From positions 434,001 through 498,000 of the forward strand of contig NZ_CP054051.1 in the NCBI RefSeq assembly GCF_013372265.1: 64,000 nt of DNA, written 5' to 3'. The first letter of the stretch is position 1. Each line of letters starts with the position of its first letter. A program made the translations under genes and the position numbers. Positions 13,855 through 27,922 of the stretch are shown piece after piece. A model generated the notes under the pieces. The model made no database searches. It was not told the origin of the DNA and saw only the letters and a program-made list of their open reading frames with translations. This stretch comes from Aliarcobacter cibarius (GTDB lineage Bacteria; Campylobacterota; Campylobacteria; Campylobacterales; Arcobacteraceae).

Positions 13855-14375
13855 TTACATAAATATAAATACTCCGATAATGATTGGAATTAAATAAATA
13901 AGACCAAAAATAGCTCCTAAAGCCCACCATTTACCTTGAGAAATATATCCTGCTCCATACCAAATAGGAGAAGGTCCTGTTCCATAAGGAGTAATAATTC
14001 CCATAACTCCCAAGCTTCCAGCTAAAAGAATAGTAAATGTAAGCAATTGATCTGCAGGTATAAATGTAGATGCAATAACCATAAATAACGGAACTAATGC
14101 AGTAACATGAGCTGTTGTACTAGCAAAAAAGTAGTGTAGTACATAGAACAACAGTATTAAAGCAATAATAAGTGATGTTAGACTTAAGTCAGCAAGCATT
14201 GATTGAGAATTTTTACCTATAAAATCTAATATACCTACTTTTTTTAAACCATCTGCTAGTGCAACTAAAGTAGCAAACCAAATAAATACATTGAATGCAG
14301 CTTTATCTGAAAGTAAATCATCCCAAGTAATAATACCTGATAAAATCATTATAGAAACAATACTAATTGCAGTTA
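13855..14375 (-). pseudogene. DASS-family anion transporter, C-terminal part cut off by the IS
   Basis: This is the 3' part of a divalent anion:sodium symporter (SLC13/CitT-like) gene. It carries the last helices, with TWDDLLSDKAAFNVFIWFATLV, the second Na+/substrate block GVMGIITPYGTGPSPIWYGAGY and a C-terminal helix. An IS630-family element splits the gene here. The open frame reads on into the IS up to a TTG at 14409, which is not a native start. Removing the element and one TA copy joins this piece in frame with 15510-16397 into a 468-residue protein. Without excision the protein is almost certainly not functional. Confidence 0.88.
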
Positions 14376-14406
14376 TTACTCCCCCAATAAACAGAGTTAA
14401 TTTTAT
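14376..14406 (+). repeat. IS terminal inverted repeat, left
   Basis: This 31-base end begins TTACTCCCCCAATAAA and abuts the TA at 14374-14375. It overlaps the first base of the transposase stop. It matches the other end at 22 of 31 positions. Confidence 0.85.
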
Positions 14407-15455
14407 CAACTAGCATATTTCACACTAGGATGTAAAAAGAAATTTGCAACTTTTTGTGGATTTCTTTGTAAACTCTCCATATAATTTTGTGTGTTTTCTT
14501 TCAATTCTTTTTGATTCTTTGGCAGACCATTTTTATGTACATTACTTTTATAATCTTGATTTAAATATTCATCTGGGTTAAATTCAGGAGAGTATGGTGG
14601 TAGATAAAATAGTTTTATTTTATCTTTATTCTCTTCTTCCCACTCTTTTACTTTTTTAGCATGATGTACTCTTAGGTTATCTACTATCATAAATACTTTT
14701 TTATCATTTGACTTTATTACTTTTTCTAAAAAATCTATAAAATTATCAGTAGCTATTGAATCATCATAAAGTGCAAACATTGATTTACCTGTATTAGTAA
14801 TAGCACTTATCATATTAACTTTAAACTTTTTAGCTGTATGAGTTAATATTGGTTTTATTTTACTTCCTATTGGTGCATATCCTTTTAGATTACTTGGCAA
14901 TGAAACACAAGCTGTTTCATCTGCCCACCAAACATCAGCATTATTTATTTTTGCTTCTTTTTTTATCTTTGGGTACTCTATTTCAAGCCAAGCTTTTGTA
15001 GCACTATCTTTTCTCTCATAAGCTCTTTTTATTGGCTTTTTAGATGTAAATTGCCATTTAGCTAAATAATCTCCAACAGTTGATATTGGCATATCAACAT
15101 CAAGTTCTCTCAAAATCAATTGTTTTACTGCTTCCCTTGTCCATAGGGCAAATTTAAATTTTAGCTGTTCTGGTGTTGTATCTATTAGCATACTAATAAT
15201 TCTTGATTCTTGTTCATCACTAAGGCGTTTACCACTCTTTTTTGGTCTACCTGTCTTTTGAACTTTAAGAGCTTTTTGTCCATCTTTTTTGTATTTACTA
15301 TACCATCTTGAAGTTGTAATTTTTGATAAACCTAAAATACTAGCTGTCTCAATATTACTAACACCACTCTCTCTTAATTTTATTGCTCTATCCCGAAGAT
15401 ATTGCAATGTTTTTGAATCTACTTTTCTTGCATCATTTTTATCTAATTTTTCCAT
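14406..15455 (-). CDS. IS630-family transposase
   Basis: This DDE transposase cuts and moves the element. N-terminal helix-turn-helix regions (about 15-100 with GVSNIETASILGLSKITTSRW and RPKKSGKRLSDEQ) bind the ends. The catalytic domain shows the three acidic residues in VWWADE, MIVDNLRVHHAKK and YLPPYSPEFNPDEYLNQ, the IS630 hallmark. I chose the ATG at 15455 (349 residues); a TTG at 15473 would add six residues. Neither has a clear ribosome site. The frame is intact, so the element may still be active. It is encoded in the same direction as the disrupted gene. Confidence 0.93.
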   Translation of the reverse strand: MEKLDKNDARKVDSKTLQYLRDRAIKLRESGVSNIETASILGLSKITTSRWYSKYKKDGQKALKVQKTGRPKKSGKRLSDEQESRIISMLIDTTPEQLKFKFALWTREAVKQLILRELDVDMPISTVGDYLAKWQFTSKKPIKRAYERKDSATKAWLEIEYPKIKKEAKINNADVWWADETACVSLPSNLKGYAPIGSKIKPILTHTAKKFKVNMISAITNTGKSMFALYDDSIATDNFIDFLEKVIKSNDKKVFMIVDNLRVHHAKKVKEWEEENKDKIKLFYLPPYSPEFNPDEYLNQDYKSNVHKNGLPKNQKELKENTQNYMESLQRNPQKVANFFLHPSVKYAS

Positions 15456-15478
15456 TAGAAATTGTACCAACAATATCC

Positions 15479-15509
15479 ATAATATTAGTTTAATTTATCG
15501 GTGTAGTAA
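15479..15509 (-). repeat. IS terminal inverted repeat, right
   Basis: On the minus strand this end begins TTACTACACCGATAAA and abuts the TA at 15510-15511. It pairs with 14376-14406 as an imperfect 31-base inverted repeat. Confidence 0.85.
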
Positions 15510-16397
15510 TATTGTTGAATCAACTCCTAGTTCTTTTCCAAATATCCAAAGAACTAAAGCAACAGTTGCAAGTCCAGCCATTAAATATTCTTTAAATGTA
15601 ACAGAACCTAATTTTTTTAATTCTTCTGCTGCCCAAGTTGGAGCTTCTGGAGATCTTTTTTGTGTTGGTGGATATAAAACATAAGTAAGCCAAGGTGTTA
15701 ATAAAAACATTGGAATCATTAATGGAAGCATTATTGTTGCCCATTCCATCCATGTTATAGCATGGCTAGTACTTTTTGCAATCAAATCAACTGCTAGTAA
15801 GTTCGGAGCAAGAGCTGTTAAAAACATTGAACTTGTTACACAAGTTGATGCAATTGCAACCCAAGATATATAAGCACCAATTTTTCTTGGTTCATTATCT
15901 GGTAAAGAGTTGAAAATTTGTGGAATATTAATAGCTACAGGATATATACTTCCTCCACTTCTTGCTGTATTGGATGGCATAAATGGAGCTAAAATTAAAT
16001 CAGAGAAAGCAACAGCATATCCTAATCCTAAAGTACTTTTTCCCATATATTTAACCATAAGTAATGATACTCTTTTTCCAAGACCTGTTTTTTTATAACC
16101 TTCTGCAAACATAAATGCTGCAAAAATTAGCCAAATAACACTATTTGAAAAACCACTTAGTGCCCATTTTACACTCTCTTTAGAATCTCCAACTAAACCT
16201 AAAAGTGCAACTACTGAAATGGCAGTAAATCCCACTAAAGCTGCTGGTACAGGCTCAAGAATTAACCCAATAACTACTCCTAAAAATATTGCTAAAAAAT
16301 GCCATGCATTTTGTGACAAACCTTCTGGAGCAGGTATAAACCATAAAACTAGAACTACTAGCACAGGTGCTAATAATTTTAAACTCCTTGTAGACAT
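15510..16397 (-). pseudogene. DASS-family anion transporter, N-terminal part cut off by the IS
   Basis: This 5' part encodes the first 296 residues of a divalent anion:sodium symporter, with about seven helices and the first conserved block FMPSNTARSGGSIYPVA, which is the family SNT/Na+ motif. After GVDSTI the frame runs five codons into the IS and stops. The ATG at 16397 follows AGGAGGATTT, a strong ribosome site, so a truncated protein is probably still made. Substrates of the family are citrate, succinate, sulfate or other dianions; the one here cannot be read. The rest of the gene is at 13855-14375. Confidence 0.9.
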
Positions 16398-24627: not shown

Positions 24628-24870
24628 ATGAAAAAAATTTTATTAGCATCAGCTGTAGCAGTGGCATTATTTACAGGTTGTACAGAAGATAAAAAACCAG
24701 CAGAAACAAAAGTGGAAGCTCCTAAAACAGAAACTGCAAAAGCAGTAGAAGCTGTAAAAGAAGCAACAGCAGAAGTAAAACAAGAAGCTAAAGAAGCAAC
24801 AACTGCAGTTAAAGATGCTGCTCAAGAAGTAAAAGAAGCAGTAACTGCTCCTGCAGAAGATAAAAAATAA
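24628..24870 (+). CDS. small lipoprotein with Ala/Glu/Lys heptad-like repeats
   Basis: I do not recognise a function. The 80-residue precursor has a lipoprotein signal (MKKILLASAVAVALFTGC, lipid Cys at 18). The mature part is almost only A, E, K, V, T and P, in short repeats such as VKEA-TAEVKQEAKEA-TTAVKDAAQEVKEA. This should form a long amphipathic helix or coiled coil, as in Lpp-like or LEA-like proteins. AAAAAAGGAACGCAAA precedes the ATG. It is a single gene with a strong terminator. A cell-envelope structural or stress role is a guess. Confidence 0.8.
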   Translation: MKKILLASAVAVALFTGCTEDKKPAETKVEAPKTETAKAVEAVKEATAEVKQEAKEATTAVKDAAQEVKEAVTAPAEDKK

Positions 24871-24874
24871 TTAA

Positions 24875-24900
24875 ATAAATCCGTGTTTTCACGGATTTAT
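24875..24900. terminator. bidirectional Rho-independent terminator
   Basis: ATAAATCCGTG (24875-24885) and CACGGATTTAT (24890-24900) form a perfect 11-bp stem with a TTTT loop. It lies between the lipoprotein gene and the convergent Cys-motif membrane gene, whose stop (24897-24899) is inside the stem. Confidence 0.8.
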
Positions 24901-25877
24901 AATAAAACTCCATTTAAAATATAGTATCTTGCAACATAAAAACTAACCAATAATACAAATATTGAATTAAAGATTAAAGACAATTTGTAGATTTTCCCCT
25001 TATTTAATCCTTCAAATTTTGAAAAAATATTTGTACAGATAGAAAAGAAGAGTCCTAAAAACAAACTACTCCATATAAAGTATCCAATAAAATTATACTC
25101 AGTTTGTAGCATACAAAAAGGACATTGATGAGTTGGAAGTTCGTAAATGTATGTTGAAAAAAAGTAAGTTACACTAAAATAAGCTAAATAAGTAAATAAA
25201 ATATTAGAAAATAGAAGTAAAAGAGACTTTTTTTGTAAGCTTGAAATAACAGTTAGTATGTATAATAAATAAAAAATTGTGATTAAATTTGGAATATTTA
25301 AATTAAAAGGAATATTCGTAGATACACTACTTACTCCAAATATTATAGAACAGCATTCTACAGGCTCTTTAGTTGGTATATTTATTAAAAAATATAAATC
25401 TAAAATGAGTTCTACACTAAAAAGAACAAATATTATAATAAAAAAAGAAAATTTTAATTTTGTGTATTTATAATCTTTTTGCTTTAAATCTAAATAGTTA
25501 AGAATAATCCAAAATCCAATGAAAAATAGATTTATTACTTTTAAAACAAGAGAAAAATTCCCAAAATCATTTGAAGAAAAAATTCCTGCAGCACACATTG
25601 CTCCATGAACTAAAAAAGTTAAAGAATCTATACTATATATAAAGTAGAAAAAAGTGAATATTTTTGAAAAAAGAGCAAATGAAATTATTAATATAACTAA
25701 ATAGGCTTTTTTTTCTAGATTGTATTGTAAAGAATTACTTTTAGTATAATCCCAATTCTTAAGAATTTGAATAGAAATAAAAAAAGATATAAAAAGTAAA
25801 AAATAAATCACTATTTGAGAAAAAAGTAGAATAATAATTTCGTTTGATAAAAATAAATTATTCATGAATAGTTCCAT
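24897..25877 (-). CDS. polytopic membrane protein with Cys motifs, ABC operon partner
   Basis: I do not recognise this 326-residue protein. It has about eight hydrophobic helices and three Cys sites: HGAMCAAG (near residue 93), PVECCSIIFG (near 173) and THQCPFCMLQTEY (near 251). The CPFC resembles redox or metal sites of VKOR/DsbB-like enzymes, but the overall sequence does not clearly match them. The start may be ATG 25877, overlapping the ATPase stop by 20 bases, or ATG 25865. It is the last gene of a four-gene operon with an FtsX-type ABC exporter. Metal, heme or thiol handling is speculative. Confidence 0.75.
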   Translation of the reverse strand: MELFMNNLFLSNEIIILLFSQIVIYFLLFISFFISIQILKNWDYTKSNSLQYNLEKKAYLVILIISFALFSKIFTFFYFIYSIDSLTFLVHGAMCAAGIFSSNDFGNFSLVLKVINLFFIGFWIILNYLDLKQKDYKYTKLKFSFFIIIFVLFSVELILDLYFLINIPTKEPVECCSIIFGVSSVSTNIPFNLNIPNLITIFYLLYILTVISSLQKKSLLLLFSNILFTYLAYFSVTYFFSTYIYELPTHQCPFCMLQTEYNFIGYFIWSSLFLGLFFSICTNIFSKFEGLNKGKIYKLSLIFNSIFVLLVSFYVARYYILNGVLL

Positions 25878-26529
25878 TTTTTAGTTCTATTTCTAAATCA
25901 ACAAAATTTTGGTTAAAAAATATAGGGTCATGACTAGCAATAATTATAGTTTTTCCTAAATCTTTGAGATTTTTAATAATATTTATAAAATTTTGTGAGT
26001 TATCATAATCCAAAGATGCTGTTGGTTCATCGCATAAAATAAGTTCACCTTCATTAACTAAAGCTCTTGCAATTGCACATCTTTGTTTTTCTCCACCTGA
26101 AAGATTAAAAATTAGTTCATCTTTTTTATGATAAATATTCGCTAGTTTTAAAGCCGATTCAACTTTAATATCAATCTCTTTTTGGGAGAATCCTAAAGGA
26201 ATTAATGGAATTGATACATTGTCTCTTACATTAAATTCATTAAAAAGATTAAAAAATTGAAAAATAAATCCTATATTTTTTGCTCTAAAATTACTTGAAT
26301 GAATATCTGGAAATTTAGAGATTAGTTCATCTTTATAATATACTTCACCACTTGTTGGTTTTTGCATAGTTGATATTATTGATAAAAGAGTTGATTTACC
26401 ACTTCCACTAACACCTTTTAGAACTGTACAAGAACCTTTCTTTATCTCTAAATTTATATCTTTTAGCGAATAAAACTCTTTATTTGTATTTTTATAAAAT
26501 ATTTTATTTAGATTTACTATTTTTATCAT
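25858..26529 (-). CDS. ABC transporter ATPase, LolD/MacB type
   Basis: The 223-residue ATPase has Walker A GVSGSGKST (about 39-47), the signature LSGGEKQR, Walker B LILCDEPTASLD and the switch His in IIASHD. The length and the LSGGEKQRxAIARAL pattern fit the LolD/FtsE/MacB group that works with FtsX-type permeases. It overlaps the permease stop by 4 bases (ATGA). It should power mechanical transmission or extraction at the inner membrane. The partner permease has a single copy, so a dimer is expected. The substrate is unknown. Confidence 0.9.
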   Translation of the reverse strand: MIKIVNLNKIFYKNTNKEFYSLKDINLEIKKGSCTVLKGVSGSGKSTLLSIISTMQKPTSGEVYYKDELISKFPDIHSSNFRAKNIGFIFQFFNLFNEFNVRDNVSIPLIPLGFSQKEIDIKVESALKLANIYHKKDELIFNLSGGEKQRCAIARALVNEGELILCDEPTASLDYDNSQNFINIIKNLKDLGKTIIIASHDPIFFNQNFVDLEIELKNGTIHE

Positions 26530-27623
26530 TTTAAACTTTCAAATGGATTTATTGCTGATGTTTTCCATGCAGGTATTAAAACTGCACTTAAAAAAGGAAT
26601 CATAAAGAATAAAAATATAGTAAATATTGATGAAACATTAAAGTAAGTATCTAATAGAAAATTATTTTCTAAATTGTTAAATCCAATAAAAATATATTTT
26701 AAAACAGGAGCCTGTAAAATAAAAACAAAAATAAATGCAAAAATAGTCCCTAAGATAAATGCAACAAATGAGATTATAAAATTTTCAGTGAATTTTAATT
26801 TGATAATATCTTTTATGCTAAATCCCAAAGCTTTTAATATAGCAATCTGTTTTTTTTCATTTGAGCTAATTTGAGAATATACTTGAAAAATGATTAAGCT
26901 TAAAGTAAAAATTACAACTATAAATAGTGTTAGAAAAAATCCGCCTTTATAGTTAAAAATATTTTCATAATTCTTTTTTATTTCAGCTTTTTCTATAACT
27001 TTTATATTATTGTCTAATCTATAAACTTTTTCTCTTATATTATCTCTTTCTAGTTCATTCTTTACATTAAAAGTTATATCTGTAGCATGATTATTTTCTA
27101 TTTGTAAAATTTGTTTAGCTAAATTTATATCCATTATTATTAAATCATTTGCAACTAAATTTTCTTCACCTTTAAGGCTTTTTTGGATTTTGAAAATTTT
27201 ATTTTCTATTATAAATTCATTTATGAATTGATATTTTTCAAGAAGTTTTTTTACTCCTTGACCAACAATAATTGAATCTTTTTCTAAATCTTTACTAGAA
27301 ATTCCAACAATTGTAAAATAGATATTGTCACTTATAAATTTATATTGTCCATAAACTCTTTCTTCAATATTTGAAATTCCTCTTATAGTTTCTAATTTTT
27401 TTATAATTTCCAAATCTATATTTTTATTAAATTTATTTTGAATTATAAAATCACTATGATTTTCTAATGTTTTAAAAAGACTATTTTGTAAAGAGTCTTT
27501 TATAAAAAGTGTAGAACAACAAAGAAATACAATAAATATTGAAAGAATAAATATTGCTAGATGTCTAGATTTATGTTTATAAATTTGTAGAAAAACAAAA
27601 TTAAGAAAAACACTAGTTTGCAT
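26526..27623 (-). CDS. FtsX/MacB-type ABC transporter permease
   Basis: The 365-residue protein has an N-terminal helix (about 15-37), a periplasmic domain of about 190 residues and three C-terminal helices, the FtsX/MacB layout. The motif SSNEKKQIAILKALGFSIKD before helix 3 is typical of the coupling helix region. I chose ATG 27623, which overlaps the stop of the small upstream gene (TAG at 27613-27615); a TTG at 27629 would add two residues. It pairs with the following ATPase. The family is clear; whether it moves lipoproteins, peptides or other molecules is not. Confidence 0.87.
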   Translation of the reverse strand: MQTSVFLNFVFLQIYKHKSRHLAIFILSIFIVFLCCSTLFIKDSLQNSLFKTLENHSDFIIQNKFNKNIDLEIIKKLETIRGISNIEERVYGQYKFISDNIYFTIVGISSKDLEKDSIIVGQGVKKLLEKYQFINEFIIENKIFKIQKSLKGEENLVANDLIIMDINLAKQILQIENNHATDITFNVKNELERDNIREKVYRLDNNIKVIEKAEIKKNYENIFNYKGGFFLTLFIVVIFTLSLIIFQVYSQISSNEKKQIAILKALGFSIKDIIKLKFTENFIISFVAFILGTIFAFIFVFILQAPVLKYIFIGFNNLENNFLLDTYFNVSSIFTIFLFFMIPFLSAVLIPAWKTSAINPFESLK

Positions 27624-27858
27624 AGACAAAATCCATATAGTTACTTTTAAAATTTAAGTCGCTTAACTCTTTTTTTGAAATTGTATAGTCTTTAAATCTT
27701 TGATTATAATCTTTAGTAGAATATGCAAAATTTGAAAGTTTTGTCATCTCTAAAGTTTTATATTGATTAGGATAATTTTTATAAACGAATAGTAAAAATG
27801 TAAGAAATATTAAAAAACTTACAATGGTAACTATTGAAAAAAGTGTATAAGCTCTAAT
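27613..27858 (-). CDS. small single-helix membrane protein, probable ATT start
   Basis: This gene is easy to miss because it has no ATG, GTG or TTG at its front. AAGGAG (27865-27870, minus strand) is followed after 6 bases by ATT AGA GCT at 27858. The frame then runs 81 codons to TAG, overlapping the permease ATG by 11 bases. The product has one strong membrane helix (about 3-28, with TLFSIVTIVSFLIFLTFLLFV) and a polar tail ending SNYMDFVYAN. The ribosome site, overlap and hydrophobic profile all support it. It is the first gene of the ABC operon. Its function is unknown. Confidence 0.62.
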   Translation of the reverse strand: MRAYTLFSIVTIVSFLIFLTFLLFVYKNYPNQYKTLEMTKLSNFAYSTKDYNQRFKDYTISKKELSDLNFKSNYMDFVYAN

Positions 27859-27922
27859 AATAGACTCCTTATGAAATATAATAATTTTAGCAATTTTAAG
27901 TTAAGTAACTATTAAAAAAGGG

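Follow-up and report, generated by a model that had tools for sequence, protein, structure and literature searches.

The metallation of periplasmic copper enzymes is understood for few systems, and NosL is regarded as dedicated to nitrous oxide reductase. For the general idea of an ABC machine working together with NosL as chaperone, NosDFYL is the precedent, and members of the MacB superfamily pass conformational change across the membrane. NosL itself is a Cu(I) chaperone with a CxM motif, required under copper limitation (PMC6530538). In the nos cluster of Sulfurospirillum cavolei, an unnamed five-gene insertion that includes an ABC permease and an ATPase lies between nosL and nosY (PMC4794192). 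Here we describe an ABC operon, conserved across Campylobacterota, whose occurrence follows that of NosL-type chaperones, including in genomes without NosZ; in some genomes it adjoins nos genes or an mcc-like cluster. This distribution suggests a NosL-based copper pathway of more general use, with a bearing on both N2O and sulfite respiration.

The window, by which we mean the whole stretch of 64,000 nucleotides that was analysed (G000:C1:434001-498000), comes from a genome of 2.34 Mb. All four operon genes, for a small membrane protein, a permease, an ATPase and a Cys protein, are carried on its minus strand:

27870-27865, minus strand: Shine-Dalgarno sequence AAGGAG of the leader gene
27613..27858, minus strand: small single-TM leader protein, 81 aa; an open frame with a TM helix, with same-position homologues in Arcobacteraceae
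26526..27623, minus strand: FtsX/MacB-type ABC permease, 365 aa from ATG; PF02687, model matches LolE and MacB
25858..26529, minus strand: ABC ATPase, 223 aa; PF00005, 117.9 bits
24897..25877, minus strand: eight-TM Cys protein, 326 aa; probable start Met5 at 25865
25593..25607, minus strand: HGAMC motif, residues 91-95; Met94 and Cys95 invariant
25350..25358, minus strand: ECC motif, residues 174-176; Cys175 and Cys176 invariant
25113..25133, minus strand: THQCPFC motif, residues 249-255; His250, Cys252 and Cys255 invariant
24875..24900, minus strand: intrinsic terminator-like hairpin of 11 pairs followed by a T-rich tail, closing the operon

An earlier sequence-only reading of this DNA had described successive overlaps of 11, 4 and 20 bases between the four genes, and the motifs HGAMC, ECC and THQCPFC in the last protein; both descriptions are exact. 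Most homologues of the Cys protein begin near Met5 of the window protein, so the last overlap, between the ATPase and Cys protein genes, is probably 8 bases. The mechanical open reading frame of the permease begins at a TTG (27629), and the ATG-based gene runs from 27623 to 26526. A divergent dksA-like gene lies upstream of the operon, and a promoter scan found a number of sites not above that in shuffled sequences. Convergent with the operon is a gene for a short Ala/Lys/Glu-rich lipoprotein (24628-24870); some relatives in the Arcobacteraceae (L027, L028, L029) have similar short lipoproteins beside the operon. Elsewhere in the window (13855-16397), a DASS-type anion transporter gene appears, by eye, to be split by an IS630-like transposase gene, with all three pieces on the minus strand: the N-terminal part (15495-16397), the transposase (14406-15473) and the C-terminal part (13855-14409).

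The apparent start codon of the leader gene is ATT (27858-27856, minus strand). Neither in the window nor in the Arcobacteraceae loci with a traceable frame does an in-frame ATG, GTG or TTG lie at a suitable spacing from the Shine-Dalgarno sequence, and an ATT or ATC first codon is conserved in the leader genes of this family (L026-L030, L059-L075). A known case of a non-canonical start codon is infC, and the conserved codons suggest that translation of the leader likewise starts weakly or under regulation.

The assignment of the two transporter genes to an FtsX-type permease and its ATPase, made by the earlier reading, is borne out by their domains. The permease scores 55.4 bits against the PF02687 cut-off of 25.5, and its structural model (pLDDT 82) has TM helices at 20-56, 214-252, 272-304 and 332-359, with a mixed alpha/beta domain of periplasmic type (61-213) between TM1 and TM2. 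Foldseek searches with this model give LolE as the closest fold (2.3e-14), MacB at 3e-12, and also structures of YbbAP, HrtBA and FtsX. The NCBIfam models nearest to the ATPase are those of bacteriocin-export, LolD and FtsE ATPases, each of which it matches below the cut-off: it reaches 182.7 against 307.75 for LolD and 172.8 against 264.85 for FtsE, and its score is also under the MacB cut-off. The permease stays far below the LolCE equivalog cut-off, at 32.5 against 362.45. As for MacAB-TolC, the ATPase and permease here are on separate genes, and the operon holds no MacA-like gene. Our conclusion from these comparisons is that the permease belongs to the MacB superfamily (type VII ABC) and is none of its named members.

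By comparison with Pfam, NCBIfam, PDB and Foldseek, the Cys protein constitutes a new family of membrane proteins. Single-sequence and profile searches of the first three returned no family or relative for the 326-residue protein, so that the match to a characterised family which the sequence-only reading had named as a refutation did not turn up, and the fold search with its model gave no Foldseek match with E < 0.9. VKOR, DsbB and DsbD, among the proteins compared, gave neither a sequence match nor a convincing fold match. The model (pLDDT 88, pTM 0.85) consists of eight long helices and places the motif sites in the TM2-3, TM4-5 and TM6-7 loops, thus all on one side of the membrane. In an alignment of 97 distinct homologues, which share 33-78% identity with the window protein, C95, C175, C176, C252, C255, M94 and H250 are invariant in 97/97, and the sole remaining cysteine, C281, is not conserved. 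The CPxC pair is located at the start of a TM helix. Mean Lys/Arg counts are 0.6, 1.2 and 1.1 in the motif loops, and mostly higher in the loops of the opposite side (1.9, 3.7, 1.1 and 2.3 for TM1-2, 3-4, 5-6 and 7-8); from this, by the positive-inside rule, we infer that the cysteines face the periplasm. To judge from its composition, the invariant Cys/Met/His set would suit Cu(I).

The Cys protein is present in 37/60 near relatives and in 64/200 genomes drawn evenly from the phylum, and its named close relatives are from Aliarcobacter/Arcobacter in the Campylobacterota. We found 98 loci that encode it, 88 of which have at least 2.2 kb of upstream sequence and count as testable. In 79 of these 88 Campylobacterota loci the ATPase gene is adjacent and the permease gene in order, so that the expectation that the gene set would stay together in other genomes holds in a neighbourhood survey. 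The kept gene order (79/88) and the five cysteines retained in every homologue, down to 33% identity, place the operon far beyond chance. A contig scan across all species returned almost only Campylobacterota among the best 80 of 358 loci. Two loci, L116 (titled Krumholzibacteriia) and L128 (titled only 'bacterium'), carry a NosL-permease-ATPase-Cys run and may be mis-binned or reflect transfer.

Outside the Arcobacteraceae the operon typically reads NosL-like gene, small TM protein, permease, ATPase, Cys protein and NosL2, often with a PF13386 protein at the end. The first NosL-like product has one or two domains with CxxCGM, and NosL2 has CxM, a motif lost in some NosL2 proteins; lipoprotein-like sequences occur among the linked NosL-type proteins. 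A same-strand NosL-type gene lies within a few kb at 48/71 testable loci, and the 23 loci that have no linked NosL-type gene are nearly all from Arcobacteraceae. It is because the NosL genes lie elsewhere in Arcobacteraceae genomes that the NosL link is invisible from the window sequence. In the window genome an unlinked NosL gene is found at G000:C1:1628346-1628867 (PF05573, 111 bits, CPVCGM; no lipobox by eye), and a diverged CxM NosL-like gene, NosL2, at about 1496800-1497324, beside a PF13386 gene with which it spans about 1496090-1497324.

Across the 200 genomes of the phylum, NosL (PF05573) occurs in 64/64 carriers of the Cys protein against 14/136 non-carriers (Fisher p = 6e-39, shared ancestry ignored). 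Among the 60 near relatives NosL2 also travels with the operon (table 34/3/3/20, p = 6e-10, shared ancestry ignored). In five genomes of the same genus (G002, G008, G019, G023 and G027) the operon, NosL and NosL2 are all absent and the PF13386 gene is kept; in G002 this gene lies in the same neighbourhood as in the window genome, without NosL2. Since it is kept in relatives that have no operon, we rule out the PF13386 gene as a dedicated partner. Two genomes are discordant: G056 has the Cys protein, with NosL and NosL2 not detected, and G036 has NosL and NosL2 with the operon absent. In G036 (L055:6972-12854) two NosL-like genes adjoin, by eye, SoxB-, SoxA-, SoxZ- and SoxY-like genes. A two-domain NosL gene is also found beside, and divergent from, a second ccoN copy (G029:C1:992550-995406), a possible hint of a link between NosL and cbb3 oxidase.

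Copper enzymes are encoded beside the operon in some genomes. NosY is found in the fetched flanks of 12 operon loci, where a nos cluster is presumably present. In the Campylobacteraceae-like genome G045, the NosL-ABC-Cys set directly follows genes for an octahaem cytochrome and for FKBP-like, Fe-S, NrfD-like and CcsBA proteins. The octahaem cytochrome has seven CXXCH sites and one CX15CH, the signature of MccA, and the cluster appears mcc-like, with the gene order and make-up of the mcc sulfite reductase cluster and the set at its distal end. MccA, a haem-copper enzyme, is counted among the cuproenzymes (PMC7558416), and a description of its CX15CH site is available (PMC6976685). In G055 (L146) an mcc-type cluster seems to have lost MccA and part of the Fe-S gene, near IS21-like genes; the NosL-ABC-Cys genes are retained, and a genome search found no MccA.

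NosZ as the sole client is rejected, since it is absent from 23/37 carriers, and the operon does not track nosZ (present in 14/37 carriers, p = 0.15, shared ancestry ignored). MccA as a general client is clear in only 1/60 relatives, and multicopper oxidase shows no association (p = 0.53, shared ancestry ignored). We also set aside a paper on Shewanella SirA as an experimental precedent, as it mentions neither copper, NosL nor an ABC transporter. In the window genome, searches for NosZ, MccA and multicopper oxidase found none of them, and cbb3 oxidase is the one copper enzyme found. It occurs in operon-less relatives too, so that it is rejected as an obligate client and no client is identified in this genome.

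Given that the operon travels with NosL across the phylum and sometimes has copper-enzyme genes as neighbours, its most likely role is that of an ATP-driven copper-loading helper for periplasmic enzymes. We judge it probable that the operon encodes a NosL-linked system for loading copper, driven by ATP and with a MacB-type transporter taking the place of NosDFY. The earlier reading had left the substrate among a metal, haem, a thiol compound and a redox-gated signal, with export as one possible function; NosL and the nos- and mcc-like context favour the metal, and specifically copper, and we see nothing specific for export.

The main rival to copper loading is a thiol-redox system, in which the Cys protein would be a membrane thiol oxidoreductase, like DsbB or VKOR in function, and the ABC transporter would move a thiol or drive thiol exchange, keeping the cysteines of NosL, of cytochromes or of copper sites reduced. 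Five invariant cysteines, among them a CPxC pair where a TM helix begins, are what such an enzyme might have, CcsBA adjoins the set in mcc-type clusters, and the gene often found at the operon end is of the DsbD_2 family (PF13386). That gene, however, is the one kept in relatives without the operon, the co-occurrence with NosL points to copper, and the comparisons with VKOR, DsbB and DsbD, though not conclusive, gave no sequence or fold match. We therefore regard a thiol-redox role as unlikely.

Two further explanations seem to us less probable still. With LolE as the closest fold to the permease, and with lipoprotein-like proteins among the linked NosL types, the operon could be a LolCDE-like paralogue serving to release or sort a few lipoproteins, such as those of NosL type, with the Cys protein as an adaptor. 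Yet both transporter proteins score far under the LolC/E and LolD cut-offs, the NosL of the window genome has no lipobox by eye, and lipoprotein release does not need five invariant cysteines, making this very unlikely. Another conceivable role is the supply of sulfide or persulfide to copper-sulfur sites, a task once suggested for NosDFY as well (PMC6530538). The copper centre of NosZ contains sulfide, and 12 operon loci have nos genes adjoining. We think this most unlikely, given that many genomes with the operon have no NosZ and that the operon contains nothing specific to sulfur.

If the operon does load copper, it might work as follows. In the transporter formed by the permease and ATPase, ATP hydrolysis in the cytoplasm would move the periplasmic domains, with no substrate crossing the membrane. 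A Cu(I)-thiolate site or relay on the periplasmic side of the Cys protein would be made up of Met94-Cys95, Cys175-Cys176 and His250-x-Cys252-Pro-x-Cys255, and NosL-type proteins (CxxCxM, CxM) would ferry Cu(I) to or from the Cys protein. The ATP-driven stroke would then strip copper from this site or hand it on to an apo-enzyme. In this way periplasmic copper enzymes could be metallated under copper scarcity: NosZ or MccA where they are present, and some other client in the window genome.

A broader proposal, which we put forward tentatively and would not bet on at even odds, is that the operon represents a second type of machine for inserting copper at the expense of ATP. Between NosL chaperones and several cuproenzymes of the periplasm that are unrelated to one another (NosZ, MccA and a further client in Arcobacteraceae), Cu(I) would travel by way of a Cys5/Met/His protein and a MacB-type mechanotransmitter, as a phylum-wide, general form of metallation, not an enzyme-specific one. 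The operon lends itself to tests of these proposals, with its defined set of genes, its invariant residues and relatives that have lost it naturally.

Our search found no published description of the operon; the literature on the Wolinella mcc cluster, a possible source of gene names, was not covered. The five-gene insertion of Sulfurospirillum cavolei (PMC4794192), neither analysed nor named in that paper, is probably the same system as the window operon. The cluster of G045 resembles the mcc cluster of Wolinella succinogenes and its relatives in that the set forms the distal part of an MccA-like/FKBP-like/Fe-S/NrfD-like/CcsBA cluster; the window operon, in contrast, stands alone, in a genome where MccA was not found. 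With LolCDE, MacAB, FtsEX, YbbAP and HrtBA the operon shares its permease fold and type of ATPase, but it falls below every reported equivalog cut-off, has a single permease and neither MacA nor LolA, and has as its partner the Cys protein and, by context, NosL.

The closest likeness is to NosDFYL, in which an ABC ATPase and permease likewise act on the periplasmic side together with NosL as Cu(I) chaperone, a function that for the window operon would follow from context; operons of the window type adjoin nos genes in a minority of genomes. Unlike NosDFYL, however, the operon has a permease of FtsX/MacB type, not of NosY type, and no NosD-like product is seen in the window operon or its neighbourhood by eye. 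It has an additional eight-helix Cys protein, it occurs in genomes without NosZ, and in nos-bearing genomes a separate NosF/NosY coexists with it. What is new here, then, is the different transporter class, the new membrane protein family and the reach into genomes that have no NosZ.
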